Notes: a model not told the origin generated them from the sequence alone. Counted from the first letter of the stretch, positions 21,382-42,516 are shown. The stretch is 45,116 nt of DNA from Thiotrichaceae bacterium (GCA_026989145.1 JALSJU010000105.1:1-45116), one strand, 5' to 3'. Translations and numbers: made by a program.

Positions 21382-22497
21382 ATGACTATTAAAGCCCTCT
21401 CTCTCGGAATTATTGTCTCGGTTACTACCTTTGTAACAGGCTGCTCAAGCCTATACCCCCCAGGAATGCCTTCACTTGATACTGGAAAATCCGTAAAGCT
21501 TGTGAAAGCAGTACCTGGTAGAGACTATACCGTTGTTCCAATCGACTACAACGTTATAAAGAAAACAAGAGGACGGTACAGACATAACAATAAAATGAGA
21601 GCCACCAGAAAAGGTCATGCTCGGGGCGCTGGTGGTTACAAGTACATTCTTGCACCACAAGATATTTTAAGTATCACTGTATGGGATCATCCAGAACTCA
21701 CGATCCCTGCCGGGGAGTTTAGATCAGCTACCTCTGCGGGACATCAGATCGGCCCTGATGGCACAATCTTTTTCCCTTACGCTGGAAGAATTAAAGCTGG
21801 CGGAAGAACAACAGCTCAGGTTCGCTCAGTACTCGAGAAAAAACTAGCAAAATTCATTACCAAACCTCAAGTAGGTGTCGCTGTAGCAGCTTACAGAAGC
21901 CAAAAAACCTTTGTATCTGGCGAGGTGAATAAACCTGGAACCCACCCAATTAACGACGTTCCATTAACGATTCGAGATATTATCGCAAAATCTGGCGGTC
22001 TTTCTAAAGAGGCTGCTGACACCGCCTTATTTATTCACAACAAAAAACAAATAGCTATAGACTTAGAAGCGTTATACCGTAAAGGAGACAATTCACAAAA
22101 CTACGTTTTACGCAATGGTGACTCACTCCACATCGATAAGCTAGATCCTTACAAGAAAGTATTTGTTATGGGCGAAGTACTCAATCCAGGCAATGTAACA
22201 ATTGACCGCTTCGGTCTATCGCTTGCTGAAGCTTTAAGTACAGCTAAAGGTGTCAATGAAGAAACTGCCAACCCTATGGGTGTATTTGTTGTACGACAAG
22301 TAAATCCTAGAAAACCTACAATCTACCAGTTACAAATGACCTCAGTACATGCGATGGCGTTAGCTGAGCAATTTTCACTTCAGCCACGCGATGTTGTATA
22401 CGTTACTGCAACACCAATCACCCGCTGGAACAGAGTCATAAGCAAACTTCTACCAACGTTCACAAGCGCAGGTGCTGCTCGCGCTGTTGTTAAATAA
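21382..22497 (+). CDS. wza: Wza-like polysaccharide export lipoprotein
   Basis: 371 residues with a lipoprotein signal peptide (lipobox VTGC, Cys near residue 21). The polysaccharide export domain (YKYILAPQDILSITVWDHPEL through KPQVGVAVAAYRSQKTFVSGEV) is followed by two SLBB-type domains (PGTHPINDVPLTIRDIIAKSGG and VFVMGEVLNPGNVTIDRFGLSLAEALSTAKG). Wza proteins form an octameric outer-membrane channel for capsule or exopolysaccharide. The C terminus contains an amphipathic helix near TRWNRVISKLLPTF, as in barrel-forming Wza. It heads a wza-wzb-wzc operon (26 and 24 bp gaps) without glycosyltransferases. Confidence 0.93.
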   Translation: MTIKALSLGIIVSVTTFVTGCSSLYPPGMPSLDTGKSVKLVKAVPGRDYTVVPIDYNVIKKTRGRYRHNNKMRATRKGHARGAGGYKYILAPQDILSITVWDHPELTIPAGEFRSATSAGHQIGPDGTIFFPYAGRIKAGGRTTAQVRSVLEKKLAKFITKPQVGVAVAAYRSQKTFVSGEVNKPGTHPINDVPLTIRDIIAKSGGLSKEAADTALFIHNKKQIAIDLEALYRKGDNSQNYVLRNGDSLHIDKLDPYKKVFVMGEVLNPGNVTIDRFGLSLAEALSTAKGVNEETANPMGVFVVRQVNPRKPTIYQLQMTSVHAMALAEQFSLQPRDVVYVTATPITRWNRVISKLLPTFTSAGAARAVVK

Positions 22498-22523
22498 CTA
22501 AACGTTAGAGTAGATACAAAACA

Positions 22524-22952
22524 ATGTTCAAAAATATCATGGTGGTCTGCATTGGAAATATATGCAGAAGCCCTATTGGAGAGGTATTGCTTAAAGAGCA
22601 ACACCCTCACCTTAATATATTCTCATCGGGACTTGGGGCATTAGTTGGCAAGCCCGCTGACCCTTCATCTGTTGAATTAATGACTGAAAAAGGCATCGAT
22701 TTAACCCAACATCGTGCACAGCAAATTAATACGGTTTTGGTTGGTTCTGCAGATTTAATACTGGTGATGGAACAAAGTCATATTGATCGCATGCATTCTC
22801 AATACCCTGAGTCACGCGGTAAAGTACACTTGATTGGCAAGTGGATTGATAACCAAGAGGTTCCTGATCCCTACAAAAAGGATAAGACAGCATTTTCCAA
22901 CGCTTCTCAACTAATAGAAGCTGGACTCGAAGCTTGGAAAAATAAGCTCTAA
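22524..22952 (+). CDS. wzb: Low-molecular-weight protein tyrosine phosphatase (Wzb-like)
   Basis: 142 residues of the LMW-PTP family. The phosphate loop C-x5-R is C9-IGNIC-R15, followed by SP, and the general-acid aspartate sits in VPDPYKKD near residue 118. In capsule systems Wzb removes phosphate from the tyrosine-rich tail of Wzc, allowing cycling of polymer assembly. Its position between the wza-like and wzc-like genes, with a matching Tyr-rich tail on Wzc, supports that role. Confidence 0.93.
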   Translation: MFKNIMVVCIGNICRSPIGEVLLKEQHPHLNIFSSGLGALVGKPADPSSVELMTEKGIDLTQHRAQQINTVLVGSADLILVMEQSHIDRMHSQYPESRGKVHLIGKWIDNQEVPDPYKKDKTAFSNASQLIEAGLEAWKNKL

Positions 22953-22976
22953 AATAATAATTGGACAAAAATCCGT

Positions 22977-25211
22977 ATGACGGCGCAAACGCAACAAGGC
23001 TTAACTCAATTAAATCCAGAAGATGACGTAAATTTAAGACAACTCTTAAATACTGTATGGCAAGGCAAATGGCCTATACTATTTTTTATCTTAAGCTTTT
23101 TTACGCTCGCGTTTATCTATGCTTATGGAAAAACACCCATCTACCAAGCGGATGCTCTACTCCAAGTTGAAAAGAAAAAAAGCGGTGTTCCCGGTCTTGA
23201 AGACTTGGCCGGCCTCTCTTTGGAGGATGCAACCGTTAGCACTGAACTTGAGCTGATACGATCCAGAAAAATTCTAGGGCTTGCGGTTGAAGCATTAAAG
23301 CTAGATATTGTTGCAGAACCTAGACAGTTCCCGCTTTTAAGTAATGTTTATCGCAAGTTTTTCAGAGCGAGCGACGCCAACCCACTTGGCAAACTCCCCT
23401 CTGTATGGAGTAAGTTTGATAACTACACCCATAAATTTGCTTGGGGAGATGAAAGAATAAGGGTTGAAAGCCTAAAACTCCCGAGAAAACTACGCGACAT
23501 CTCACTAATACTGATCGCAGAAAAAAATAACCACTTTGTTATTCTTGATAAAGATGAAAACCTACTACTAAAAGGTAAAGTAGGTAGCCCTGCAATATCC
23601 AAAAATCGTGAAATAAAAATATTTATTTCTGAACTAAAAGCCTTACCAGGAACCCAGTTCAAACTCGAAAAAAAATCTAAACTCATTGCTATAGAGGCAT
23701 TACAAAAGAAACTACAAGCTGGAGAAAAAGGCAAAAAAACAGGCATCATGCAACTTATTCTTGAAGGACCAGATAAGAAAATAATCAGCCAAATTCTTGA
23801 TCATATATCAAGAACATACCTTGAACAGAACAAGTCACGAAGTTCAGAAGAAGCAAGCAACGCCTTAGGCTTTCTAGAAGAACAAGTGGGCCCAGTAAAA
23901 TCTTACCTTGAAAAGGCTGAAGCCCGTTTAAAACAATACAGAATCGAGAACAAAACAGCTGACCTCTCTTTAGAAACCAGTGCCGTTTTAAACGTAGTTT
24001 CCGCCCTTGATACCGAACTACAGAAACTATCTCTAAAAAAAGACGAACTAAAACAACGCTATACTGACAATCACCCCACGATACAAGCGATTGTTTCCCA
24101 AGAAAGGCAACTCAATAAACGCAAACAGGCAACTTTAGCCAAAATAGAACGTTTACCCAATAAACAACAGCACCTGCTTAAATTTGAACGTGACTTTAAG
24201 GTTGCAAGCTCCATTTATAATGATGTGCTTAATAATATCCAAGAGTTCAAAATAGCCAAAGCTAGTAGTGTTGGCAATGTCTATATCGTCGATACTGCAG
24301 TCACTCATGATAAAGCGGTTAAGCCCAAAAAAGCACTAATAGTTGCTATCGGAACATTACTGGGCGCCATTTTCGGTTTAGGACTTGTCTTTTTAAGAAA
24401 GATGCTCCGAAATACAGTTGAAGACCCTGAAGTCTTAGAAAGAAAAACTGGCATACCTGTTTATGCATCAATCCCCCTAAGTAAAAGTGTCACACTCACA
24501 AGCTTCCTAAGTACAAAAGACCGAAGGCAAAAATCTTTACTTGCTTTAGAGGACCCGACTGATCTTACCATTGAAAGTCTTCGTAGTTTACGCACTAGCT
24601 TACATTTTGCCTTACTTGAAGCTAAAAATAATATCGTGATGATTACAGGCCCATCACCGAATACAGGAAAATCTTTTATCTCATCGAACTTTGCAGCCGT
24701 TCTTGCTACAGCAGAACAACGTGTATTATTAATTGATGCTGATATGCGAAAAGGCTACTTGCAAAATGTACTGGACCTAGATGTATCACCAGGGCTATCA
24801 GAAATGATTAGCGGTAAAGTCGCTATTGAAGATGCTATCCATACTATTGCTATTGGTGAACATAGTTTAGATGTAATTACCCGCGGACAAACACCACCCA
24901 ACCCATCTGAATTATTAATGCACAGTAATTTTGGCGACCTTTTAAATGGCCTTTCTGAACAGTACGACTTAATTCTTATTGATACTCCACCCATTCATGC
25001 GGTAACAGACCCTGCTATTATTGGCAGTCATGCGGGAGTCGTATTCATGGTAGCTTACGCGGGCTTGCACCCAATAAGAGAAATTGAGCATGCTGTCTCT
25101 CGATTGGCTCAAACAGGGATAGAAACAAAAGGCTTTATCTTTAATGGTTATGTACCAAAGAAGGGTGGTTATGATTATGGTTATGGCTACTACTCTTACT
25201 ATAGCGATTAA
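22977..25211 (+). CDS. wzc: Wzc-like bacterial tyrosine autokinase, polysaccharide co-polymerase
   Basis: 744 residues. An N-terminal Wzz domain spans two membrane helices (about 33-52 and 448-468) around a large periplasmic coiled-coil region. The cytoplasmic BY-kinase has Walker A GPSPNTGKS (558-566), Walker A' LLIDADMRKG (about 583-592), Walker B LILIDTPPI (about 663-671) and the tyrosine cluster YDYGYGYYSYYSD at the extreme C terminus. Wzc controls chain length and export with Wza and is dephosphorylated by Wzb. It is the last gene of the operon; the next gene (dxs) is convergent, so polymerase and sugar-transfer genes must be elsewhere. Confidence 0.95.
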   Translation: MTAQTQQGLTQLNPEDDVNLRQLLNTVWQGKWPILFFILSFFTLAFIYAYGKTPIYQADALLQVEKKKSGVPGLEDLAGLSLEDATVSTELELIRSRKILGLAVEALKLDIVAEPRQFPLLSNVYRKFFRASDANPLGKLPSVWSKFDNYTHKFAWGDERIRVESLKLPRKLRDISLILIAEKNNHFVILDKDENLLLKGKVGSPAISKNREIKIFISELKALPGTQFKLEKKSKLIAIEALQKKLQAGEKGKKTGIMQLILEGPDKKIISQILDHISRTYLEQNKSRSSEEASNALGFLEEQVGPVKSYLEKAEARLKQYRIENKTADLSLETSAVLNVVSALDTELQKLSLKKDELKQRYTDNHPTIQAIVSQERQLNKRKQATLAKIERLPNKQQHLLKFERDFKVASSIYNDVLNNIQEFKIAKASSVGNVYIVDTAVTHDKAVKPKKALIVAIGTLLGAIFGLGLVFLRKMLRNTVEDPEVLERKTGIPVYASIPLSKSVTLTSFLSTKDRRQKSLLALEDPTDLTIESLRSLRTSLHFALLEAKNNIVMITGPSPNTGKSFISSNFAAVLATAEQRVLLIDADMRKGYLQNVLDLDVSPGLSEMISGKVAIEDAIHTIAIGEHSLDVITRGQTPPNPSELLMHSNFGDLLNGLSEQYDLILIDTPPIHAVTDPAIIGSHAGVVFMVAYAGLHPIREIEHAVSRLAQTGIETKGFIFNGYVPKKGGYDYGYGYYSYYSD

Positions 25212-30709: not shown

Positions 30710-32137
30710 TTACTCTTCCTTACTGCCCGCAGGGCTGGTGTAACGATCATTTAATGTTTGTACAAATTGGTCAATATCATTGCGAATACCATCTAATTTT
30801 TTGCGCACCCCATTACCCCAACCTACTGGATTAGCCCTAAAGAGGCTACGATACCAACGCGTATTCTTTCGAAATGCGGTTGCAATGTTGCCATAGGTGT
30901 CTTCGGTGTTTAAAGTTTTAGCAACACCATTTACTAAAGATTTCCTGATGAAAAGGTGTAACAAGTAGGCAAGAAAAGCCAATACCCCAATAGCTACAAT
31001 CCCCATAACTGTATTATTTTGCAACTGCAATAACCAAGGATGATTTAATAAATCAAACGAATAAACCAGTGCTAACAAGCCAATAAATAACGGTATAAAA
31101 ACAAACAAGTCAGTTATAATGACACGTTTTCTCCAGCGCCTCATTGCCACCTTAATCTGCGGAACAGCTTGTTGTTCAATTTGATTAGTGAGTGATTCCA
31201 TACTACCAATTATTCGATAAACACGCTCAACATTGATATCTTCCATACGCTTAGTAAGCTCAGCATAATCAGTATCGGATTTAGATTGATAACGCTCCCA
31301 AACGGCTTGATTTTCAACCGGTGTTGCTAATTGTTTATTAAAAATGACATAAAAGCGCCCAGCATTTAATCCACTTTGTACTAATGACTTCTGCCAAGCT
31401 CCAACTATATCTTCCATGTTGTCATCTTTAGCAGAGCTATCTATTTGATTTAAAATAAACAAAAACTTGCTGCTATCATTGCGTCGTTGCGAACCTTCAA
31501 CCAGGTGCTTCAACGTATCCTGCATCGCTCCCGGCTCTGGGTGCCTAGCATCAAATAAAACCAACACCAAATCAGATAAATCAATAATATGGTCGGTTAT
31601 TTTTAAGGTGGCTTTACGTTGTTCATCAGCATCAAAACCAGGGGAATCAATAATGATTTTTCCACGAACCGCTTCACTAGGGACAGCCTTCATTTGCAAA
31701 TAGTTATCAATTTTAGCGCCTTCACCCTGAACTACATTTTCCAGGTCATCACTAATTTGATAAAAAGGAAAGCGAGGATCTCCGTCCAATGCGATACCCG
31801 GCAATGTGCGCACTTCTTGATTCGTTGAGTCACCTGAATAAGTAATCACCGTAAATCGATCATCAACGGCTTGATTTCCTGTGTTTTGAACAGGCAAACC
31901 AAGATAGCTATTGATAAAACTTGATTTACCTGCTGAGAATGTACCTAGAATAGATATTAATGGCCACCATGAGATCTGAGTCGCATAGGATTCATCCGCT
32001 TGAATGAGGCCCATTTTTGCAGATATTTTATCGAGCTGGCGATAACGCCCAACGACAGAAACAAGGATGGGGTTTTCTGTTTCCAGATGATTTTGCAAGC
32101 GCTCTAAACGGCTTTGCATTCTTTTGGCAGGGGTCAT
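30710..32137 (-). CDS. Dynamin-like GTPase with two transmembrane helices
   Basis: 475 residues. The GTPase has G1 GTFSAGKS (65-72), a G2 threonine near 96, G3 DSPGFD (164-169) and G4 NQID (230-233). The [12 protein letters not shown] form is typical of bacterial dynamin-like or EHD-like proteins. Two membrane helices follow (about 339-361 and 376-398), then a basic cytoplasmic tail. The pattern recalls bacterial dynamins that remodel or tether membranes, but the protein is short and lacks long coiled-coil stalks. It is the last gene of a five-gene minus-strand module, 75 bp after the methionine-heptad protein and 8 bp before hemL. Confidence 0.8.
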
Positions 32138-32212
32138 ACAACATCCTCTTTAGCCTAATAATTTAGCCAAAGATTAGCATAAAATGAATGTAATTATTCT
32201 AATTTTAGATGT

Positions 32213-32989
32213 CTAATTTAATGTTACCGCATTAGACGTTGTCTCTACAAAAACCTCTCTAGAACTCTGATCATTTGATTCAACCACACCACTTGGACTC
32301 CCAACAGGTATAGGTACAGAGTTTACAGCTGGTACTGGCTGTTGTTGCATATAAGGTTGTACCGATGGAGGGGGCATTATCATATTTTGCCCTGTATTTT
32401 GTGCTCCATAGCCAGATTCATACCCCTGTTGGGCAGGGTATGCATAATAGGACTGAGGCAATGGCGAGGTTGAGCCTTGGAAGGGTAAATTTTGATCATC
32501 TTTCCATGGTAGAAAATTATTCATGAAGCTCAACGGTGTTGAAATATTTTTATTCAAACTCCAAAAGTCACGTTGCATATTATTGGTTGAGGCCGCCATA
32601 TCGTATATTGCGGGCTTCATTCCACTAATAGCACCAGACATTTTGTTGGTGGTAGCCGTCATCTTACCGACATTATTAGACATATTTTCTGTAGAGGCAC
32701 CTAGTGTATCCATAGTGCCAGACATATGATTCATGGTACCTGAAATAGACGTCATATTTTCATCAACTGATTTACCCATATGAACAATTGTGTCAGCCAT
32801 ACGATTAACATCAGAGGTCAAAGAATAAATAAGGAAAAAGCCAAATGCCGCCAATATAAAAAAGGCAACCATCGCAGGGTAAACCAACATTTTCATTCGT
32901 TTTGTTGCATCGTCCGCCTTTGCTTCAAACTCTTGCAATTCACTTTCTAATTCAAGAATATAATCTTTATGCAATTCACTTTTTGCCAT
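32213..32989 (-). CDS. Single-pass membrane protein with methionine-heptad coil
   Basis: 258 residues, no recognised family. A short N-terminal coil (about 7-33) precedes one transmembrane helix (about 34-56). A long probable helix with regular methionines follows. Met occurs at 103, 110, 117, 124, 131 and 138, exact seven-residue spacing, and also at 64/71 and 86/93. Asn, Ser and Thr fill the other positions, somewhat like methyl-accepting chemotaxis signalling coils. A Pro/Gln-rich C-terminal segment (about 170-240, with YPAQQGYESGYG and QPYMQQQPVPAV) is probably disordered. It is 17 bp after the TPR gene and 75 bp before the dynamin-like gene, so the three likely act together at the inner membrane. 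Confidence 0.7.
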   Translation of the reverse strand: MAKSELHKDYILELESELQEFEAKADDATKRMKMLVYPAMVAFFILAAFGFFLIYSLTSDVNRMADTIVHMGKSVDENMTSISGTMNHMSGTMDTLGASTENMSNNVGKMTATTNKMSGAISGMKPAIYDMAASTNNMQRDFWSLNKNISTPLSFMNNFLPWKDDQNLPFQGSTSPLPQSYYAYPAQQGYESGYGAQNTGQNMIMPPPSVQPYMQQQPVPAVNSVPIPVGSPSGVVESNDQSSREVFVETTSNAVTLN

Positions 32990-33006
32990 GATTTTTTCCC
33001 ACCATT

Positions 33007-33729
33007 TTAATTATTATTACTTCGTTCAAGCCTATCCATTATTACTTCCACCCTCTCTGGGTAAAATAACTGGATAAACCCAACCATATTCGACACTCTA
33101 TCAGATGAACCCGACTCGATTAAAGGAATCGCTATTTCTGAGTAAAGCTCTGCGGCCTTTTTAGGGTAACCTTGTCGCCAATAGACATTGCCCAGCTCTC
33201 CTTTATGCTCAATGACTTGAGGTTCTCTTTTAATAAGCTGTTGATATATTTGTGCGGCTTCATCCAAGCCATTATTCCAATAGGCTTCACGCGCCATTAG
33301 TAATAATTCATCTGTTTCCAGCTGAGCTAAATCTTCCGCTTCTACGGCATTTTTTTCTGGCAACTTATTACTATTGTTAGCACTATGTGTTGCTGTACCT
33401 GCAAATGGCTCAGGGCTGTTTTGTAGCTTTGTACGATGATGATCTACTGGTTCAGTTTTTATAACAGCTGGCGGTATAACCGTTTTATTATGAATTCTCA
33501 TTTCTGGCATAGCCTTTGATTCAATTACTTTCCTAGCTAGACTAGCGTCATGATTTAGAGGTTTTTTTACAGCTTTGCCAATTTCTACGATTTCATTTTT
33601 TAAAACGTGATTATTGCTATCAGCCTCACGTTGCTTATTCCCCGAAGCCACAGTCAAAAGAATTGCAATCGCTCCTAACACCCATATAGCAATAAGTGGA
33701 CGAGCCAATATCCATTTAACAATATTCAT
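33007..33729 (-). CDS. Membrane-anchored TPR protein
   Basis: 240 residues. An N-terminal signal anchor (about 8-28, WILARPLIAIWVLGAIAILLTVA) is followed by a low-complexity linker of roughly 110 residues. Two tetratricopeptide repeats lie at about 143-200 (AREAYWNNGLDEAAQIYQQLIKREP, then GNVYWRQGYPKKAAELYSEIA). The soluble part probably faces the periplasm. TPR units mediate protein contacts, so it may be the scaffold of the module. It lies between the ParA-like gene (75 bp gap holding a possible weak terminator) and the methionine-heptad gene (17 bp). Confidence 0.7.
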   Translation of the reverse strand: MNIVKWILARPLIAIWVLGAIAILLTVASGNKQREADSNNHVLKNEIVEIGKAVKKPLNHDASLARKVIESKAMPEMRIHNKTVIPPAVIKTEPVDHHRTKLQNSPEPFAGTATHSANNSNKLPEKNAVEAEDLAQLETDELLLMAREAYWNNGLDEAAQIYQQLIKREPQVIEHKGELGNVYWRQGYPKKAAELYSEIAIPLIESGSSDRVSNMVGFIQLFYPERVEVIMDRLERSNNN

Positions 33730-33782
33730 TAATTTCTTCCTCTTCTACATCTTTGATCAAACAACGATGATTATCGCATATT

Positions 33783-33809
33783 TAAAAACTGATATTATCA
33801 TAAATCAGT
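33783..33809 (-). terminator. Possible weak terminator or attenuator at the ParA-like stop
   Basis: Minus strand: ACTGAT and ATCAGT pair over a 10-base loop, followed by TTTTT. The hairpin overlaps the stop of the ParA-like gene. The stem is AT-rich and only six pairs, so it may lower, not end, read-through into the TPR gene. Confidence 0.3.
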
Positions 33810-34425
33810 ATAATAATTCGCCTAGCGCTTCCATTTCAAGTGCAGCTTTAGATTTTGGGTCGAGTTCAAATACTGCCATACCTTCGCTAAACGAACGACG
33901 GTATACTGTTCGCTGAAATAGTCGTTGTTCCAACATTGTAAGCCCCTCTAACGTACATAACGCATCAAATGCATCATCTGTTTCCCTTACCGCACGATGT
34001 GTATCTGAACGATTCATGAAACCTAAAACCTCAGGCTTAGAGGCACTTTTACATGTTTTATCGATAATTTTCAAAAAACGCTGTGTTGACCACACATCGG
34101 CCTGACTAGGTGCTATTGGAATCAAAATACGATCAGCTCGCTGTAAAGCAGCCGTCATTGCCTCATTGTCCGACAAACCTATATCTACGATAACCTCTGT
34201 ATACTTACCTTCACTACCAAGCTGACTCACGAAATGCTGAGGTGTAATAGTTGGGGTATGACCATCCTCAGCCCTGATTTCTAATGCATCAGTAATCGTT
34301 GCTTGAGGATCAAGATCATAAACCGATACGTGGACATTTCTACGTGTAGCTACCCAAATTGATAAATTAAAGGCAACCGTACTTTTACCCGTACCACCCT
34401 TTAGGTTTCCGACAACTGTTATCAT
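33805..34425 (-). CDS. ParA/MinD-like ATPase
   Basis: 206 residues of the ParA family: deviant Walker A KGGTGKST (9-16), Walker A' VYDLDPQATI (about 36-45) and IVDIGLSDNEA in place of the usual Walker B aspartates. Residues IAPSQADVWSTQRFL follow. It is short and lacks a DNA-binding N-terminal domain, like the orphan ParA proteins that position large protein assemblies. No ParB gene or parS-like site is visible nearby. Neighbours are a proline-rich secreted protein (46 bp upstream) and membrane proteins, suggesting it positions or regulates a membrane complex; this is inference. Confidence 0.85.
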   Translation of the reverse strand: MITVVGNLKGGTGKSTVAFNLSIWVATRRNVHVSVYDLDPQATITDALEIRAEDGHTPTITPQHFVSQLGSEGKYTEVIVDIGLSDNEAMTAALQRADRILIPIAPSQADVWSTQRFLKIIDKTCKSASKPEVLGFMNRSDTHRAVRETDDAFDALCTLEGLTMLEQRLFQRTVYRRSFSEGMAVFELDPKSKAALEMEALGELLY

Positions 34426-34471
34426 TTCACTTCCTGTTATTTGTTTGCTTGTAACATGGGTTGTTGTGTAA

Positions 34472-35149
34472 CTATTTTAGTTTATTCTGCTCAGCTCCAG
34501 AAGGAAATTTAGGTGTGGTTAATGATTTTGATAATGGCAGAGAATGAGTAGTCGCCATTGGCATCTGTGGCACTTGCGGATACCTATCAATAGGCGTAGG
34601 CATATTCCGCTGCATTTGAGGGGCAATAGGCGGCGCAGAAAATAGTTCAGGTACTTTTAATACAGGTGCCCGAGGCTTTGTTAACCTTTTAAAAGGCGCA
34701 TTCAACTTATCAACTGGCAGACCTGGCTCTAATTTCTGGATCCGTATTTCTTTCGGTGACTGAGGCGAGTATTGATTCATTCTTTTAATCACCGGAGCTC
34801 TAGGCGGCTTCATATTATGACTAAAGGGCATAACAACTGTTTTCTGCTGTAGCATACTTGACGATCTAAAGGAGCCATCAGACTTCTTTAATAATTTAAA
34901 CATATTTGGCTGCGCAACCTGAAAAGGCCCTATAGGTGGAGGCGACAAGGGAGTAACTGGTGTTTTTTTCAAATTGCTTTTCTGCAACTTCGGCACCTTA
35001 TTCTTTGAAGGCTGATTAATAATAGCAGGAGGATTTACAGAAAATTTCCTTTCAGCTTCTGCCGTGCCCCCCCCCGAAAACAGAATCAAAACAGATGCAA
35101 AAGCAGTCACACTAATCACACTCAAAACACCTTTTTGTAAAACGCTCAT
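34472..35149 (-). CDS. Secreted proline-rich protein of unknown function
   Basis: 225 residues. An N-terminal signal peptide or anchor (about 6-30, GVLSVISVTAFASVLILFSGGG) precedes a Pro/Lys/Gln-rich, probably disordered chain. It carries loosely repeated motifs of the type PRAPV (three copies: PPRAPVIKR, KPRAPVLKV and a related RAP region) and PPI. No domain is recognised. The ribosome site AGAGG precedes the ATG at 35147-35149. A run of nine G/C in the signal-peptide codons could slip. It is the first gene of the module that ends in the dynamin-like GTPase. Confidence 0.65.
   Translation of the reverse strand: MSVLQKGVLSVISVTAFASVLILFSGGGTAEAERKFSVNPPAIINQPSKNKVPKLQKSNLKKTPVTPLSPPPIGPFQVAQPNMFKLLKKSDGSFRSSSMLQQKTVVMPFSHNMKPPRAPVIKRMNQYSPQSPKEIRIQKLEPGLPVDKLNAPFKRLTKPRAPVLKVPELFSAPPIAPQMQRNMPTPIDRYPQVPQMPMATTHSLPLSKSLTTPKFPSGAEQNKLK
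35067..35075. repeat. Nine-base C/G homopolymer in the signal peptide of the proline-rich protein
   Basis: Nine C on the plus strand (nine G in the coding strand) encode consecutive glycines at about residue 26-28. It is the only homopolymer of this kind that I noticed in this AT-rich window. Gain or loss of one base would truncate the protein just after the signal peptide. Confidence 0.8.
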
Positions 35150-35234: not shown

Positions 35235-38200
35235 TTAAATATCTTTTTTCAGACGGATGCCTCTACGGGCTTTTTTATCGACCGATTTCGACTTTAAAAC
35301 AGACTGTTGCGATTCAGAAGTTTTTGGCTTTGTCGTAGCTTTTGACTTTGTCGTTGCTTTTGAGTTGGTTACAGCTTTATTATTTTTCATTTTTGGCTTA
35401 GCCACTATCGTTTTATTTGAATCATTTAGCGATTCAGTTTTAGCCACTACTTTATTGACCGGTTTACGTGGTGACGGTACCCAATCATCATCGTCGTCAT
35501 CTTTGCTAGCACGATTGAAAATCAAACTAAACAATCCCTTAACACTTGAAATTACCAGTGTTGCTGCCATACCTACTATGCCAAATAAGGTAGAAAAAAC
35601 ATCGCTAACTTTTTCACCAAAACTTTCCTCATAGTCAGAGTTACCCGTTGAAGATTTAGCTTGCTCTGCTGCCTTTTTATCTTTGGGATTAAAATCAGGC
35701 GGTACAATACTATTTCCATCACCATCAACACATAATGCTTTGCCTGCACTAATACACCCTAATGGCACAACCAATAACGTTAATAACGTCGAAATTAAAC
35801 CACCAAATACTAATGACACCGCCATTCCTTTAAAAATTGGATCAGTAATAATAACTAATGACCCGCCAATCAATGCAAATGCCGTTATTGCAATCGGTCT
35901 AGTTCGTGCCTCACAGGAATAAATAGCTGCATCTACGACACTCATACCCTCATTGATCACAGCGTTTTTGGTAAAATCAATTAACAATATTGAGTTTCTA
36001 ACCACTATACCGGCCAAAGCGATAAAGCCAATCATGGAGGTAGCCGTAAAATCAGCACCCCAAATCCAATGCCCTGGAATAATACCAATTAAGGTTAAAG
36101 GAATTGGGGCAATCGCAATAGCAGGAAGCAAGAAGTTTCCAAACAAGCCTACGATCAGCATGTAAATTAAAACTAAGGCAGCCATAAAGGCAATACCCAT
36201 ATCACGGAAAGTTTCAAACGTTACGGTCCACTCACCACCCCACTCGAAATTGGTTTTATCTGCATTATCCTCACGTCCAAACCAATTACCACCAGTAACA
36301 ACTGCACCATCTGGAGCGATATAGCCTTTGCCATCATTAGCAGCATCCAATAAATCACCCACTTGGAACATACCATAAACAGGGGCAGCCAAATCACCAA
36401 CTGTTTCCGCAGTCACGAACTCTACTGCGCGTAAATCTTTATGGTAGATAGGTTGATCAGCACGCTCAGAAACAAAACCTCCTAACTCAGACAACGGTAA
36501 TGTCTTCCCCATACGATTCGTAACTGGCAACTGAATTAAGCGGTTAATTTGCGAGCGAGCACTGAGAGGAACTTGCATCATTATAGGGGTTGGGTTAATC
36601 AACGCATTACGCTTTATATCACCTAAAACATAACCACCCATTGCCATTTCAAGTGTGGCATTAATATCCTCAACGCTAATTCCATTCCGCTGTGCTTTTG
36701 CTGCATCAACCTTAAAGCGTAAGATATCGTGAGGCTCTTCCAAGAAATTATCCACATCACCTAAATTGGGTGCATCTTCAAATATTTGAGTTAAATCTTT
36801 GGCTACTTGCCTACGCACTGCTGCACTTGGGCCATAAATTTCTGCTACCACAGACTGCAAAACAGGTGGACCTGGTGGCATTTCAACAACTTGGATTTTA
36901 GCGCCTAGCTTTTTCGCAATTGGCGTAAGTAATGCGCGTGCTTGTTCGGCAATTTCATGGCTCGATCGTTCACGATCATGCTTATCGGTTAACTGAACTT
37001 GGACATCGCCCTGCCATGAATTTTTACGCAAATAATAGTGCCGTACCAAACCATTGAAATTGAAGGGTGATGCTGTTCCTGAATACGTTTGCACAGCGGT
37101 AACTTCATCAATCTGTTGCATTTCGGTAGCAACTCTACTAATAAAATTAGCCGTTGTTGGTAATGACGTGCCCTCAGGAAAGTTCACCACAATATTAAAT
37201 TCAGGCTTATTGTCCAAAGGTAGCATTTTTACTTTTACACCATTGGTATAAAATAGTACTAACGTTAAAAGCAATACGCCGACTAGACCATAAATCAACA
37301 ACTTACCTTTCTTTCTATTTTGTATAAGAGGAATAATAATACCTCTAAAAAACTTCTCCAGAGTGGCTGCTTGACGGTGCTCTTTCTCCTCCATTTCTTC
37401 CAGCTGTTCTAAGCTCGGTTTAAACTTATTAGTTAACCACGGGGTAAATGCAAACGCTGCAAACAAAGAGAATATCATCGCTACCGAACCTAAGATTGGA
37501 ATCGGCGACATATAGGGGCCCATCATACCGCTTACAAAACCCATTGGGAGTAATGCTGCAATAACCGTCATGGTTGCTAGTATCGTCGGATTACCTACTT
37601 CACGCACCGCATCAACAGCGACATCGACATCGAGGCTCCCTGATAATAACCAACGCCGATAAATATTTTCCACCACTACAATGGCATCATCAACCAATAT
37701 TCCGATTGAGAAAATTAAGGCGAATAAGCTTACTCGATCAATCGTTAAACCTAGCATCCATGCTGCAAACACCGTTACAGTAATTACCACGGGGATAATA
37801 ATAAAGGTCACCAAGGAAGCGCGCCAGCCTAAGAACAGCAATACTAAAACTGTCACCATCATCGTCGCTTCAAATAACTTAAATAGAAGTTCGTTTACCT
37901 TACCTTTAGCTGATTCACCATAATTTCGTGTAATTGCCACATGCACATTATCAGGAATAATGCGGCCTTTTAAATATTCTACTTTTTCAAGTACAGCCTC
38001 TGCAACATCAACGCCGTTAGTACCATGTTTTTTTGCTATCGCCACGGTTACTGCTGCCGCTCCGTTAGCTCGCTCACTACCATCATCAACCGTTGCTTTA
38101 CCGGTGTAATAAGATACTGTTTTTGTTGCCTCATTTGGCCCCTCAACCACAGTTGCAATATCACGAACATAAACAGGCCGTCCATCAACCACTGCCACCA

Positions 38201-39014
38201 TCAAGCGCTTAACATCTTCAGCTGACTTTAGAAACGAGCCAGTAATGACATTGATAAATTTGTCGCTCGGCTCAATGGAACCGGCTTGACGCTCTGAGTT
38301 TGCCATGCGAATTGCATTTGCTACTTGCCCCAAAGACACACCATAGGTTGCTAAACGCTCAGGTAGCACTTCAATTAATAGCTGATCAGTTCTCCCATCT
38401 ACGATAAAACTTTGACTAGCATTTGGCACCTCACGGAGTTTTTGCAATAAATCCAGTGCAACCAGTTTTAATGATGCATCATCAACATCATTCGACCAAA
38501 GAGTGACTGTCACGACAGGTACATCATCTACACCCACTGGCTTAACTAAAAAACCAGTAATCCCTTGCGGCATTCTATTTTTATTAGAATTGAGTTTATC
38601 GTTAAGTTTTACAATGGATGATTCAAAATTCTCACCCACTTTAAACTGAACAGTGACCATTGCGTTACCACGGCTTGATGCAGAATAAACATGCTTAACG
38701 CCCGTGATTTCAGACATTATCCCTTCAAGCGGCCGTGCCACCTGTGACTCTACCTCTTTTCCCGTAGCACCTGGGTAACTGACAAAAATATCCACCATCG
38801 GCACAGAAATTTGCGGGTCTTCCTGCCTCGGCGTCATTTTCATGCCAAGTAAACCTAATGCTAAAAACGCGAACAATAGTAATAAAGCTAAAGGTGAGGT
38901 AATAAACATTTTAGCCATGCCACCAGCAATGCCTAAGTTTTTGGGCTCTTTCTCGGTACGCTTTGGAGAGTTATTTTCAACAGTGTTAGCAGTTTTATTG
39001 TCGTGATCGGTCAT
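35235..39014 (-). CDS. RND efflux transporter (AcrB-type) with C-terminal extension
   Basis: 1259 residues. The RND core has TM1 (SPLALLLLFAFLALGLLGM), then RQEDPQISVPMVDIFVSYPGAT and RPLEGIMSEITGVKHVYSAS. The TM4 charged motif lies in GILVDDAIVVVENIYRR (paired Asp). FIALAGIVVRNSILLIDFT stands near the second half. This HAE/AcrB-like group exports hydrophobic or cationic compounds. After the core ends at about 1110 there is a roughly 147-residue extension with one extra hydrophobic segment (about 1144-1166), six consecutive Asp (about 1172-1177) and a Lys/Ser/Thr-rich basic tail. A cytoplasmic N-terminal leader of about 30 residues is also long. Its adaptor is encoded 60 bp upstream; no TolC-type gene is present. 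Confidence 0.92.
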   Translation of the reverse strand: MTDHDNKTANTVENNSPKRTEKEPKNLGIAGGMAKMFITSPLALLLLFAFLALGLLGMKMTPRQEDPQISVPMVDIFVSYPGATGKEVESQVARPLEGIMSEITGVKHVYSASSRGNAMVTVQFKVGENFESSIVKLNDKLNSNKNRMPQGITGFLVKPVGVDDVPVVTVTLWSNDVDDASLKLVALDLLQKLREVPNASQSFIVDGRTDQLLIEVLPERLATYGVSLGQVANAIRMANSERQAGSIEPSDKFINVITGSFLKSAEDVKRLMVAVVDGRPVYVRDIATVVEGPNEATKTVSYYTGKATVDDGSERANGAAAVTVAIAKKHGTNGVDVAEAVLEKVEYLKGRIIPDNVHVAITRNYGESAKGKVNELLFKLFEATMMVTVLVLLFLGWRASLVTFIIIPVVITVTVFAAWMLGLTIDRVSLFALIFSIGILVDDAIVVVENIYRRWLLSGSLDVDVAVDAVREVGNPTILATMTVIAALLPMGFVSGMMGPYMSPIPILGSVAMIFSLFAAFAFTPWLTNKFKPSLEQLEEMEEKEHRQAATLEKFFRGIIIPLIQNRKKGKLLIYGLVGVLLLTLVLFYTNGVKVKMLPLDNKPEFNIVVNFPEGTSLPTTANFISRVATEMQQIDEVTAVQTYSGTASPFNFNGLVRHYYLRKNSWQGDVQVQLTDKHDRERSSHEIAEQARALLTPIAKKLGAKIQVVEMPPGPPVLQSVVAEIYGPSAAVRRQVAKDLTQIFEDAPNLGDVDNFLEEPHDILRFKVDAAKAQRNGISVEDINATLEMAMGGYVLGDIKRNALINPTPIMMQVPLSARSQINRLIQLPVTNRMGKTLPLSELGGFVSERADQPIYHKDLRAVEFVTAETVGDLAAPVYGMFQVGDLLDAANDGKGYIAPDGAVVTGGNWFGREDNADKTNFEWGGEWTVTFETFRDMGIAFMAALVLIYMLIVGLFGNFLLPAIAIAPIPLTLIGIIPGHWIWGADFTATSMIGFIALAGIVVRNSILLIDFTKNAVINEGMSVVDAAIYSCEARTRPIAITAFALIGGSLVIITDPIFKGMAVSLVFGGLISTLLTLLVVPLGCISAGKALCVDGDGNSIVPPDFNPKDKKAAEQAKSSTGNSDYEESFGEKVSDVFSTLFGIVGMAATLVISSVKGLFSLIFNRASKDDDDDDWVPSPRKPVNKVVAKTESLNDSNKTIVAKPKMKNNKAVTNSKATTKSKATTKPKTSESQQSVLKSKSVDKKARRGIRLKKDI

Positions 39015-39074: not shown

Positions 39075-40199
39075 TTATGAACCCGGATACCACCCAGAAT
39101 TAACGCCTACCGGCGGATTATCGATAATTTTTTCGCCCTGCTTAAGGCCCGATACTACAGCAATACTTCTACCATCACTTTGCACTGCACCTAGTCTTAA
39201 CAACCTTAACGAAGTGGTTCGTTTCGCTTCATCAGCAACTAGCACCGTCGGCAAGCTCCCCCCTTTAATTAGTGCGGACTGAGGAATAACTATAATTGAT
39301 TTACCACCTGGCGTTGTGTCTGGCAAAAATACTTCTGCATACATCCCTGGGTTTGCAGGGTAACCCACTTTCAAATCAAACTTTACAACAACAGTGTGCC
39401 TGACAGGATCTGCAATTGGGTAAATTTGTGAAATTCGCGCAGTGGTCATCGACTGCCCAACACGTGCATTAACGGTCATACCTTTCTTTAGACTAGACAC
39501 TAACACTGAAGGTACATCCGCTTTTAGACGCAAGTACTTTATAAAACCAAACTTCATTAAAGGTTGCCCAGGCTGAACTGCATCTCCAACTTCTACCATT
39601 TTTGACATTATAATGCCTTCAAAAGGAGCTACTGAGATAGTGTCCTTTATTTTGGTATTGAGCTCGTTCATTTGCGACCAAGCCATCATAACTTGGCTTT
39701 CGGCCTGAGATACACCCGTAGCACTATTCATTAAATCAGAGTAACGATTATAATCACTGTTGGTTTCTCCCATCATGTTATACATAGGCCGCGTGAAATA
39801 TATATCCATCATCGAAGGCAGACCCATGCCTGGCATCCCTGTTATATCTTTGCTTCGAGGTGATACAACTTCACGTTGATATTGTGCTTGGGAGTTTTTA
39901 AGTGCTGCCTGAGCGGAGGTAATCTGCGACCACAAAGTATTTCGTTTTGCCATCAAAGATGAGTCATCTATTTTAACAAGCACGTCTCCTTTTTTTAATG
40001 AAGCCCCAACCTCGCCACCTAAAGAGATAACTTTCCCAGGTATTTGAGCAGTGACGGTTGTTTCTTTGTAAGGAACAACTGTACTCCCCAAAATAGTTTG
40101 CGAGCTTGAAAAAGAGCTACTTACGGTAATAATTTCTGAAGCATTCGCTAAAAACGAAAGCATTAAAGCACTTGAGGCAAGGACTGATCTCAGCCACAT
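39075..40199 (-). CDS. RND efflux periplasmic adaptor (membrane-fusion protein)
   Basis: As annotated from ATG 40197-40199, 374 residues: signal peptide MWLRSVLASSALMLSFLANA, barrel-sandwich (VTAQIPGKVISLGGEVGASLKKGDVLVKID) and a helical hairpin (about 85-185). The beta-barrel with IVIPQSALIKGG and a C-terminal membrane-proximal domain follow. The frame is open to 40355. An ATG at 40250 with AGGA upstream would add 17 residues before the signal peptide and is the main alternative. The hairpin is unusually Met-rich (eleven Met between about 122 and 177). It pairs with the RND pump 60 bp downstream. Confidence 0.88.
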   Translation of the reverse strand: MWLRSVLASSALMLSFLANASEIITVSSSFSSSQTILGSTVVPYKETTVTAQIPGKVISLGGEVGASLKKGDVLVKIDDSSLMAKRNTLWSQITSAQAALKNSQAQYQREVVSPRSKDITGMPGMGLPSMMDIYFTRPMYNMMGETNSDYNRYSDLMNSATGVSQAESQVMMAWSQMNELNTKIKDTISVAPFEGIIMSKMVEVGDAVQPGQPLMKFGFIKYLRLKADVPSVLVSSLKKGMTVNARVGQSMTTARISQIYPIADPVRHTVVVKFDLKVGYPANPGMYAEVFLPDTTPGGKSIIVIPQSALIKGGSLPTVLVADEAKRTTSLRLLRLGAVQSDGRSIAVVSGLKQGEKIIDNPPVGVNSGWYPGS

Positions 40200-40573
40200 T
40201 TTGGACAACTGAAAATTCACACAATTCTGAAGACGTTCGACTATAAGCATTATTATTAGTTTCCTATATTTAGTCACTCCGGCTACCGTTTCTTTAACTA
40301 AAGAACCGTTAGTACCACCCGATGTGTTTGGCAAAACCATGTATTCAATAAACACGCGATTTATACCAGAAATAAAGAAAGTAACTGCGTCTCAATGGAG
40401 GTATTAATAAGGGTATTAATGAGAATATTGAAGCAAAGCTACTCCTAGCACCGCCGACTATAGCGTTTTAAGCGGTATTTTTCCAGCTGAAAATATGCAT
40501 TAAAGCGGGCAAGTTACACCTTTTCTCTGAAAGGTAAATACATATTAAATCAGTATATTAGCTACACTTCAGC
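40200..40573. other. Intergenic region between gspJ and the pump operon
   Basis: No gene supported. It carries the probable pump-operon promoter and a direct repeat GGTATTAAT at 40400-40408 and 40412-40420 (12-bp spacing), which could be a regulator half-site pair. A small hairpin ACCTTT/AAAGGT at 40518-40535 lacks a T run and is not called a terminator. The lower part may encode the N-terminal residues of the adaptor if the upstream start is used. Confidence 0.4.
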
Positions 40574-41197
40574 TTACTGAATTGGAATAATACGTTTAAT
40601 TTTTCCCCAGTATTTATGCTCCAGTGTGAATTCTACGGCTTTAGGCAAGCCTTTAGCTCTTTTTCCCCAGTTATCTTGCCACCCCCTTTTTACAGATAAG
40701 AGTCGCAATGTGAACTCATCGACATTATCTAACAATGTCATTTTCACTGGCTCTGCACCCAGATGATCAACCAAATTCCAACTAGAACGTATCAGCTTGT
40801 TATCGTCCAAATCATAACGCACACGCTGCAAGGTGCTGCGCTTCAAGTCCATTGGATTAGAATTACCAGCACGCGTAAATTCCAGCAAGCCATCTTGACC
40901 AAGCCCGTATAAAAACGCTCCTTCACTTTGTCCAAAACCCGCGCTTCTACTACGAAAAACTAACTGTCGCATATCACGCTCTAAAAACATCATGGTTCTT
41001 TTTAAGGATTTAAGCTGGGCTTCTTGAGAGGTTAGAACTTCATTACTTTTAAATATGTTGATCAAACCACCGTATGCCATTAATGACATCATGGAAAAAA
41101 TCATCATCGAAACCAACAACTCAATCAAAGTAAAACCCGATTGCTTGTGGCAAGGTGACTTAAAGCTTCTCTGGCAATTATTTGTTGAGAAATTCAT
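40574..41197 (-). CDS. gspJ: Type II secretion minor pseudopilin GspJ
   Basis: 207 residues. A prepilin leader ends in Gly before FTLIELLVSMMIFSMM, with Glu at +5 of the mature protein. A body of GspJ length contains RDMRQLVFRSR and DEFTLRLLSVKRGWQDNWGK-type features. GspJ forms the pseudopilus tip with GspI and GspK. It is the last of the four pseudopilin genes here, and its ATG touches the gspI stop. gspK, normally next, is missing: the following gene is the pump adaptor on the same strand. Confidence 0.9.
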   Translation of the reverse strand: MNFSTNNCQRSFKSPCHKQSGFTLIELLVSMMIFSMMSLMAYGGLINIFKSNEVLTSQEAQLKSLKRTMMFLERDMRQLVFRSRSAGFGQSEGAFLYGLGQDGLLEFTRAGNSNPMDLKRSTLQRVRYDLDDNKLIRSSWNLVDHLGAEPVKMTLLDNVDEFTLRLLSVKRGWQDNWGKRAKGLPKAVEFTLEHKYWGKIKRIIPIQ

Positions 41198-41580
41198 TAT
41201 GGTCTAGCCAAAAAACCAACAACGGTTACAACAGGATCAGCATCGCTTTTACCCCCTTCTGGCCACACAGAAAGCTCCACCCGTTTAATATTAGCATCAT
41301 CAGTTTTAATAGTCTTTTGCACCCAGTTCCACTTTCGATCAACCATTTCTTGGTCACCTTTAACTTCTCCCAACTTCGGCCATGATTTTTTTATTCTTAA
41401 CTCAGCTAATTCGTTAAGAGCGACCCATTGAGCAAAGGTTCTATCGGAAAGTCTTGCTGAATTTTTTGCCGCAGACCCCATCACTTTTATCACGCCACCC
41501 AATGAAATTGCCACCACAAATAGGGCAACCATCACCTCCAATAAGGTGAAACCTTTAGACTTATTACGACTATTTGGCAT
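41197..41580 (-). CDS. gspI: Type II secretion minor pseudopilin GspI
   Basis: 127 residues from ATG 41578-41580 (MPNSRNKSKGFTLLEVMVALFVVA). The frame is open 15 codons further, but those lie inside gspH and would give an odd leader. The prepilin cleavage site KG|FTLLEVMVAL is canonical, and ARLSDRTFAQWVALNELAELRI is typical of GspI. The gene overlaps gspH by 11 bp and gspJ by 1 bp, so translation of gspH-I-J is coupled. Confidence 0.93.
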   Translation of the reverse strand: MPNSRNKSKGFTLLEVMVALFVVAISLGGVIKVMGSAAKNSARLSDRTFAQWVALNELAELRIKKSWPKLGEVKGDQEMVDRKWNWVQKTIKTDDANIKRVELSVWPEGGKSDADPVVTVVGFLARP

Positions 41581-42070
41581 CTTTCTTTTCAATTCGCTGC
41601 TTAATGAGTCCACCGGCATCAACACTAATATCTAAGTTAATTTTATTAAGATAACTTAAGCGATAACTAAAAGGAGTGACTTCGCCAGTTGATAAAATCA
41701 AAATTTGCGGCGCAATATTTTTCTTCTTGCTTAAGGCTATAGGTTCACCTTCTAAGAAGAGTGCCGGCTTGATCACATCAGGAAAATCGTTTCGTGAAAA
41801 AGCATCTTCTGCGGCTACCCAGCTACTCTGATCATTTAGATAAAATGCATAACCAGTAGCATCTAAAGACAGCGCAAACTCACGAGATTGCAAGGTTGCT
41901 TCATCTTGTGCAAAATTAATTAAGGCGACCAAGCGATCGCCTTCTTTTTCTAGCAACTCATCTGCTTGGTTACTAGGGAATGACAAGGTAACCGCTCCCA
42001 TCATGATCGCGGCGATAACCACCACGACCATCATCTCAATCAGCGTAAATCCTTTTGAGTTATTACTCAT
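41570..42070 (-). CDS. gspH: Type II secretion minor pseudopilin GspH
   Basis: 166 residues with prepilin site KG|FTLIEMMVVVVIAAIMMG. GspH features follow: SFPSNQADELLEKEGDRLVALINFAQDEATLQSREFAL. GspH is a minor pseudopilin that contacts the main GspG pilus in the periplasmic piston. It begins 8 bp after gspG and overlaps gspI. Confidence 0.92.
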   Translation of the reverse strand: MSNNSKGFTLIEMMVVVVIAAIMMGAVTLSFPSNQADELLEKEGDRLVALINFAQDEATLQSREFALSLDATGYAFYLNDQSSWVAAEDAFSRNDFPDVIKPALFLEGEPIALSKKKNIAPQILILSTGEVTPFSYRLSYLNKINLDISVDAGGLIKQRIEKKDAK

Positions 42071-42078
42071 TGATACTT

Positions 42079-42516
42079 TTACTTATCGATAGCCCAATTA
42101 CCAATATCATCATCGCTTTGCACGCCATCAGGACCGAAAGAATAAATATCAAAATCGCCATGCGAACCAGGACTTAAATATTTGTAAGGATTTTCCCAAG
42201 GATCCATCGGCGTTTTATTTAAGTATTGACGCCAATTTTTAGGCGCTGGATCACCTGATGGCTTCGTCACTAGCGCCTCTAAACCTTGATCGGTACTGGG
42301 GTATTGATAATTTTCTGCTTTGTATAATTCAAGTTGTGAACTGATACTTTTAATATCTGTGCCAGCACGAGAAATGCTCGCTTTCTCGATATTGCCTAGC
42401 AGTTTAGGCCCAATTGCCGCTGCCATAATGGCGATAATAACAACCACAACCATGACTTCCAACAAGGTAAAACCTGTTGCGCGCGTTTTTACTCGCTGTT
42501 GAACTAACTGTTTCAT
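42079..42516 (-). CDS. gspG: Type II secretion major pseudopilin GspG
   Basis: 145 residues, the main pseudopilus subunit. The leader ends at TG|FTLLEVMVVVVIIAIMAA, followed by the GspG signature YQYPSTDQGLEALVTKPSG, and DPWENPYKYLSPGSHGDFDIYSFGPDGV with the calcium-binding C-terminal loop. First of gspG-H-I-J. gspC-F, gspK-N and the ATPase are not in this window. It diverges from the rhombosortase gene, with their start regions under 100 bp apart. Confidence 0.96.
   Translation of the reverse strand: MKQLVQQRVKTRATGFTLLEVMVVVVIIAIMAAAIGPKLLGNIEKASISRAGTDIKSISSQLELYKAENYQYPSTDQGLEALVTKPSGDPAPKNWRQYLNKTPMDPWENPYKYLSPGSHGDFDIYSFGPDGVQSDDDIGNWAIDK

Follow-up and report, generated by a model that had tools for sequence, protein, structure and literature searches.

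Organization of the Locus

The window considered here, a stretch of 45,116 nucleotides from whose first letter all positions are counted, comes from the genome of a Thiotrichaceae bacterium (GCA_026989145.1, JALSJU010000105.1:1-45116) whose nearest named relatives are Cocleimonas. It carries a minus-strand gene unit with the order MFP-RND-PRO-ParA-TPR-HEP-GTPase, which recurs across Gammaproteobacteria and whose distribution follows that of genes for sulfur globule proteins (SGPs).

An earlier reading of this DNA (the sequence-only reading) had described five adjacent minus-strand genes at 30710–35149, and the open reading frames (ORFs) with their translations confirmed them. The first, PRO (34472–35149), encodes an exported Pro-rich low-complexity protein, a candidate globule-coat protein, with an N-terminal hydrophobic signal, 15% Pro and the motif PPPIGPF (34922–34942). 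It is followed by a ParA-type ATPase of 206 aa (33805–34425) and by a TPR protein with one N-terminal transmembrane (TM) segment (33007–33729), which matched TPR_16 below the cut-off (E 7e-6) and occupies a conserved slot. The next gene encodes HEP (32213–32989), a single-pass membrane protein with a methionine heptad and a TM segment at about aa 36–58 (32816–32884), and the last a short EHD/mitofusin-like dynamin-family GTPase with a TM hairpin (30710–32137). The spacing between the five ORFs is 46, 75, 17 and 75 bp.

Upstream lie the genes for an RND transporter of the AcrB/AcrD/AcrF family (35235–39014; ACR_tran, 490 bits) and for its periplasmic adaptor MFP (39075–40355), the conserved first gene of the module, which passed the cut-off of RND_mfp TIGR01730. 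The listed start of MFP is GTG, and the true start is possibly further downstream. Both genes belong to the same unit as the other five, because the order is conserved across relatives. The weak terminator that the sequence-only reading had placed after the RND gene was not recovered: there is no terminator-like site between the RND and PRO genes, and such sites in the region are no commoner than in shuffled sequence. Together with the short gaps, this fits one transcription unit starting upstream with MFP and RND. The module does run into hemL here, at a distance of 8 bp, but hemL is its neighbor in some genera only.

Conservation of the Gene Set

A scan of named genomes gave 80 loci, including those of Cocleimonas, Thiothrix, Thiofilum, Sedimenticola, Thiohalomonas, Candidatus Thiodiazotropha and metagenome-assembled genomes (MAGs) of Chromatiales. 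Many of these loci share the order, and the Sedimenticola and Thiodiazotropha types form two divergent arms. In members of the family the seven-gene order is kept, with hemL-rpoH after it only in some genera; in Thiothrix-like genomes a gene other than hemL comes after the GTPase. Further loci carry one to four extra exported low-complexity proteins, a DUF4412 protein, which we read as LolA-like, and, in the interval from TPR to HEP, a DUF302 protein of ~196 aa. Genus g7 and two Cocleimonas MAGs (L048 and L051) have jointly lost RND, ParA and HEP at the locus and retain a PRO-like gene, TPR and the GTPase.

Conservation across genera and orders rules out a curiosity confined to this window. 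The unit matches no known system, as had been supposed from the sequence, and its genes do not resolve into matches to unrelated known systems. Each enzyme comes from a known superfamily, while the system itself is new; no description of it was found in the open literature searched.

Co-Occurrence with Sulfur Globule Proteins

To assess co-occurrence, 369 genomes of the class were used; these include incomplete genomes, and the counts rest on similarity thresholds. ParA was found in 65 genomes, HEP in 76 and the GTPase, almost always in a single copy, in 90. ParA and HEP occurred together in 61 genomes (p = 4e-50) and lay less than 10 kb apart in 37 of them, always on the same strand. Of the 56 genomes having both the GTPase and ParA, 36 have the two genes no more than 10 kb apart (same strand in 34), and HEP is present in each of the nine ParA genomes that lack the GTPase.

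The Pfam SGP profile (PF17228) matched 62 of the 369 genomes, of which 58 have HEP, 53 ParA and 55 the GTPase. In 14 genomes of 11 families an SGP match was located within 3 kb of ParA, against ~0.5 expected. When each family was counted once, with the number of families in the sample taken as 176, HEP was present in 30 of 31 SGP families (p = 5e-26).

The association was not a by-product of sulfur oxidation, since it persisted after stratification on dsrA, which was found in 119 genomes and is present in the host. Among dsrA-positive genomes, HEP occurred in 51/54 with SGP versus 15/65 without (p = 2e-16); among dsrA-negative ones, the corresponding counts were 7/8 and 3/242 (p = 9e-11). Circularity, in which the module's own exported genes would be counted as SGPs, was also rejected: most SGP genomes have matches on other contigs too, and by our reading the sole match lies beside ParA only in a few (G113, G257 and G067). 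Within the host's own family, losses of ParA and dsrA agree only partly (G017, G022 and G033 lack both; G003, G011, G014 and G028 lack ParA and have dsrA), and this pattern was not used as support.

Predicted Features of the Proteins

PRO keeps the same slot across lineages. A protein with the motif PPP(x)GP[FY] was found just after RND in 34 of 71 distinct RND loci, while the motif occurred in 52 of 3347 distinct ORFs overall. These loci include L184 and L200, whose other exported proteins are of the SGP type: two exported neighbors of ParA, belonging to different families, passed the Pfam SGP cut-off of 26.7 (56 bits in L200 and 34 bits in L184). The exported neighbors in relatives had no NCBIfam match. 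G028 has no copy of this ParA; its MFP/RND pair adjoins an exported Asn/Gly/Trp-rich protein of 369 aa, SGP-like by eye and without a Pfam match. The module's exported proteins resemble SgpA-D of Allochromatium vinosum in being exported, periplasmic and of low complexity, in coming from globule-forming Gammaproteobacteria and in the SGP-type genes of relatives' loci. They differ in that published work concerns coat proteins, with no ParA, RND or GTPase machinery described in the papers found, and in that PRO is not a Pfam SGP.

Judged by its sequence, RND belongs to the AcrB fold family as an uncharacterised subfamily placed in no curated one: it scored far below every NCBIfam subfamily cut-off (TIGR00915 for HAE1 exporters, 279 bits versus 940). 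It shares with AcrB/MexB-type pumps the RND fold, an MFP partner and a proton-relay Asp pair (D442-D443, invariant in alignment A5). Unlike those pumps, its module has no outer-membrane channel gene, and it bears an unusual low-complexity, K/S-rich cytosolic tail of about 175 residues, which terminates in RRGIRLKKDI (35238–35267). After removal of duplicate RNDs, the pattern RG[IVL]x[LI][KN] near the C-terminus was found in all 67 distinct RNDs whose locus includes ParA and was missing in four of the seven whose locus does not (about 3e-5 by exact calculation); it was present in none of the other ORFs of the loci. Of the four tail-less RNDs, two belong to Thiofilum flexile and G028, where this ParA is absent from the genome, and the other two are paralogues within G016. 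In several lineages a conserved protein of 132–146 aa adjoins the RND/MFP pair (L154:8945-9352; L165, L180, L181 and L199); it is SCP2-like by eye and had no Pfam or NCBIfam match.

The ParA-type ATPase was recognized by Pfam (E 4e-12) and, below cut-off, by NCBIfam (E 2e-35); ParA_partition NF041546 gave 122 bits against its curated cut-off of 180. The signature Lys K9 and K14 of the deviant Walker A motif and D81 of Walker B are invariant over 21 homologues, and ParF is nearest in sequence among solved structures. In agreement with the sequence-only reading, no ParB-like ORF was found among the module genes and their conserved neighbors. Chromosome or plasmid partition was rejected, since no ParB was found there and ParA sits among membrane genes. 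Short basic peptides on partner proteins often stimulate ParA ATPases, and we therefore propose the RRGIRLK peptide as a ParA recruiter; the chances that ParA contacts the RND tail appear evenly balanced. The arrangement would resemble ParA/McdAB-type cargo positioning in the ATPase with its signature Lys and in a short basic peptide on the cargo that is a candidate activator, but it differs in that no ParB was found, the candidate adaptor is the RND tail and the cargo would be periplasmic. A more distant ParA of the same family occurs in another neighborhood in L186, L187, L188 and L190 (G266, G150, G363 and G242), in three of which genes of ~128 and ~840 aa lie beside it.

HEP is predicted to consist of a short cytosolic stretch, a membrane span and about 90 periplasmic residues, a topology derived from the charge pattern. 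The span is its most conserved part, with VYPxxxAFxxLAxYGFYLIY conserved in alignment A3. The methionine heptad noted earlier withstood shuffling, as one heptad register takes in 7 of the 12 Met of the periplasmic segment (p = 0.001). AlphaFold2 predicted one continuous helix at aa 4–148 (145 residues) followed by a disordered tail. Matches to DUF948, NheC and similar families were coil-driven and below cut-off and were rejected. By eye, four genomes from two families (G334:C384, G097:C122, G230:C150 and G092:C25) have HEP paralogues within ~7 kb of dsrA, at a distance of about 6 kb, too few for a claim. HEP-like genes were also seen in three dsrA-positive genomes of 1.4–1.6 Mb (G143, G260 and G358, family f109) having neither this ParA nor the GTPase.

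The GTPase passed Dynamin_N (E 1e-15; 58 bits versus a cut-off of 27), and its GTPase motifs (17 protein letters not shown, and NQxD) are invariant or nearly so. In the model (pLDDT 81), helices 3–42, 277–360 and 442–467 form a helical neck or stalk packed on the G domain. The nearest fold is that of EHD4 (Z 23.7, 351 aligned residues, root-mean-square deviation 4.5, 14% identity), followed by mitofusin, IniA (Z 16.9) and BDLP. By motifs, profile and predicted fold, the protein belongs to the EHD/DLP branch of the dynamin superfamily. It shares the EHD4 fold, the GTPase motifs and the helical neck with EHD ATPases, mitofusin and bacterial dynamin-like proteins, and it differs from them in length (475 aa, shorter than BDLP, IniA and SynDLP), in having no EH domain and in its TM hairpin. 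In 23 of the 90 GTPase genomes neither ParA nor HEP was found, and none of these had an SGP match; the GTPase therefore also has a role of its own. The same mini-dynamin GTPase was seen away from the module, without ParA, HEP or SGP, in many Gammaproteobacteria (L145, L123, L126, L148 and L191-L195).

Elsewhere in the window, the region immediately upstream of the MFP gene (40574–42516) carries Type II secretion pseudopilin-like genes, and a gspJ-like gene is located near the module in several relatives as well. A plus-strand cluster at 21382–25211 contains a polysaccharide-export-type gene, a low-molecular-weight phosphatase and a Wzc-like kinase, all named by eye.

Proposed Role and Alternative Explanations

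The sequence-only reading had suggested a machine that organizes the envelope or inner membrane. This description is apt, including its lack of ParB, but it missed that RND and MFP are members and that the exported slot often holds SGP genes in relatives. The latter give the module a probable cargo. We consider the module probably globule-associated, and we put at roughly 55% the probability that the locus is a trans-envelope machine serving periplasmic sulfur globules.

Globules lie either in the periplasm or inside infoldings of the cytoplasmic membrane (PMC12481199, PMC10386293). A cytosolic ParA would therefore need a membrane-crossing handle, for which the RND tail and HEP are candidates, and an invaginated inner membrane would offer a natural role for an EHD/dynamin-like GTPase. 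Based on the above, we suggest the following scheme. The exported Pro/Gly/Tyr-rich proteins, represented by PRO in the host and by those of the SGP type in its relatives, would form the coat of the globule or nucleate it. RND and MFP would together be an envelope-spanning transporter at the globule site and may carry hydrophobic sulfur species, lipid or coat material. ParA, as a gradient-forming ATPase, would position the complex through the Arg/Lys-rich RRGIRLK at the end of the RND tail, which would stand in the place of ParB. HEP would span the inner membrane, extend its long Met-studded helix into the periplasm and tie the cytosolic side to the globule. Finally, the GTPase may remodel the inner membrane around the globule, a role that we propose only tentatively. 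In A. vinosum, the gene beside sgpD encodes a hydrophobic/amphiphilic exporter (PMC10386293), possibly but not necessarily this RND. The open literature, to which the search was confined, yielded no study that connects either ParA or this GTPase with sulfur globules.

Several observations weigh against this scheme. PRO had no Pfam match and is thus not a Pfam SGP, the host genome has no PF17228 match, and 18 of the 76 HEP genomes lack an SGP match. The SGP profile is compositionally biased, although it matched none of 14 control genomes and only 8 of 250 dsrA-negative genomes. G016 retains ParA though both of its RNDs are tail-less, and in G003 and G011, members of the family with dsrA, the locus no longer contains RND, ParA and HEP. 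Deletion of sgpD left globule formation intact (PMC10386293), and SUP05 bacteria form periplasmic globules, reported without dynamin (PMC6509183), so the GTPase cannot be a universal requirement.

The GTPase is also where an alternative enters. Two modules may stand side by side, one of RND, MFP, exported proteins, ParA and HEP for globules, the other an independent membrane-maintenance gene (the GTPase, perhaps with TPR) clustered by chance. The 23 genomes with the GTPase and neither ParA nor HEP speak for such a division, as do the g7 genomes and L048/L051, which retain the PRO-like gene, TPR and the GTPase after the loss of RND, ParA and HEP. Chance clustering fits poorly with the 36 of 56 genomes in which the GTPase and ParA are at most 10 kb apart, 34 times on the same strand, and we consider this explanation rather unlikely.

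It is less probable still that the locus performs general envelope upkeep in sulfur oxidizers, with a ParA-positioned RND and lipid-binding periplasmic partners transporting lipids or other hydrophobes and no tie to globules. An AcrB-type RND with its MFP would suit such transport, and relatives' loci add the DUF4412 protein and other small proteins, but neither the SGP association kept among dsrA-positive genomes (51/54 versus 15/65) nor the SGP genes beside ParA would be predicted by it. The proximity of the GTPase fold to IniA recalls mycobacterial iniBAC, which pairs a Gly-rich structural-type protein with dynamin-like proteins (PMC6715688); studies of iniA and an efflux pump are cited there. 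By analogy, the locus would be a drug- or stress-tolerance module, with the GTPase repairing or supporting the membrane that surrounds an efflux pump and an exported structural protein accompanying the pump. For all the likeness in the exported protein, the dynamin-like GTPases and the efflux link, iniBAC has no ParA, HEP, TPR or RND, its iniB-iniA-iniC gene content is not found here, and the module's distribution follows SGP genes, which makes this explanation highly improbable.

Sulfur globules are a long-known storage body, for which the papers found describe only coat proteins. A conserved gene set whose distribution follows globule proteins over and above sulfur oxidation offers a concrete gene list for asking how globules are built, placed and inherited. 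In its fullest form, the globule-machine reading would have ParA position and segregate a periplasmic storage body through the RND peptide while a dynamin-family GTPase shapes the membrane, a dedicated and widely conserved organelle machine; we hold this possible, at somewhat less than even chances. If true, this would take ParA positioning to cargo beyond the cytoplasm and connect a bacterial organelle with a dynamin-family GTPase.

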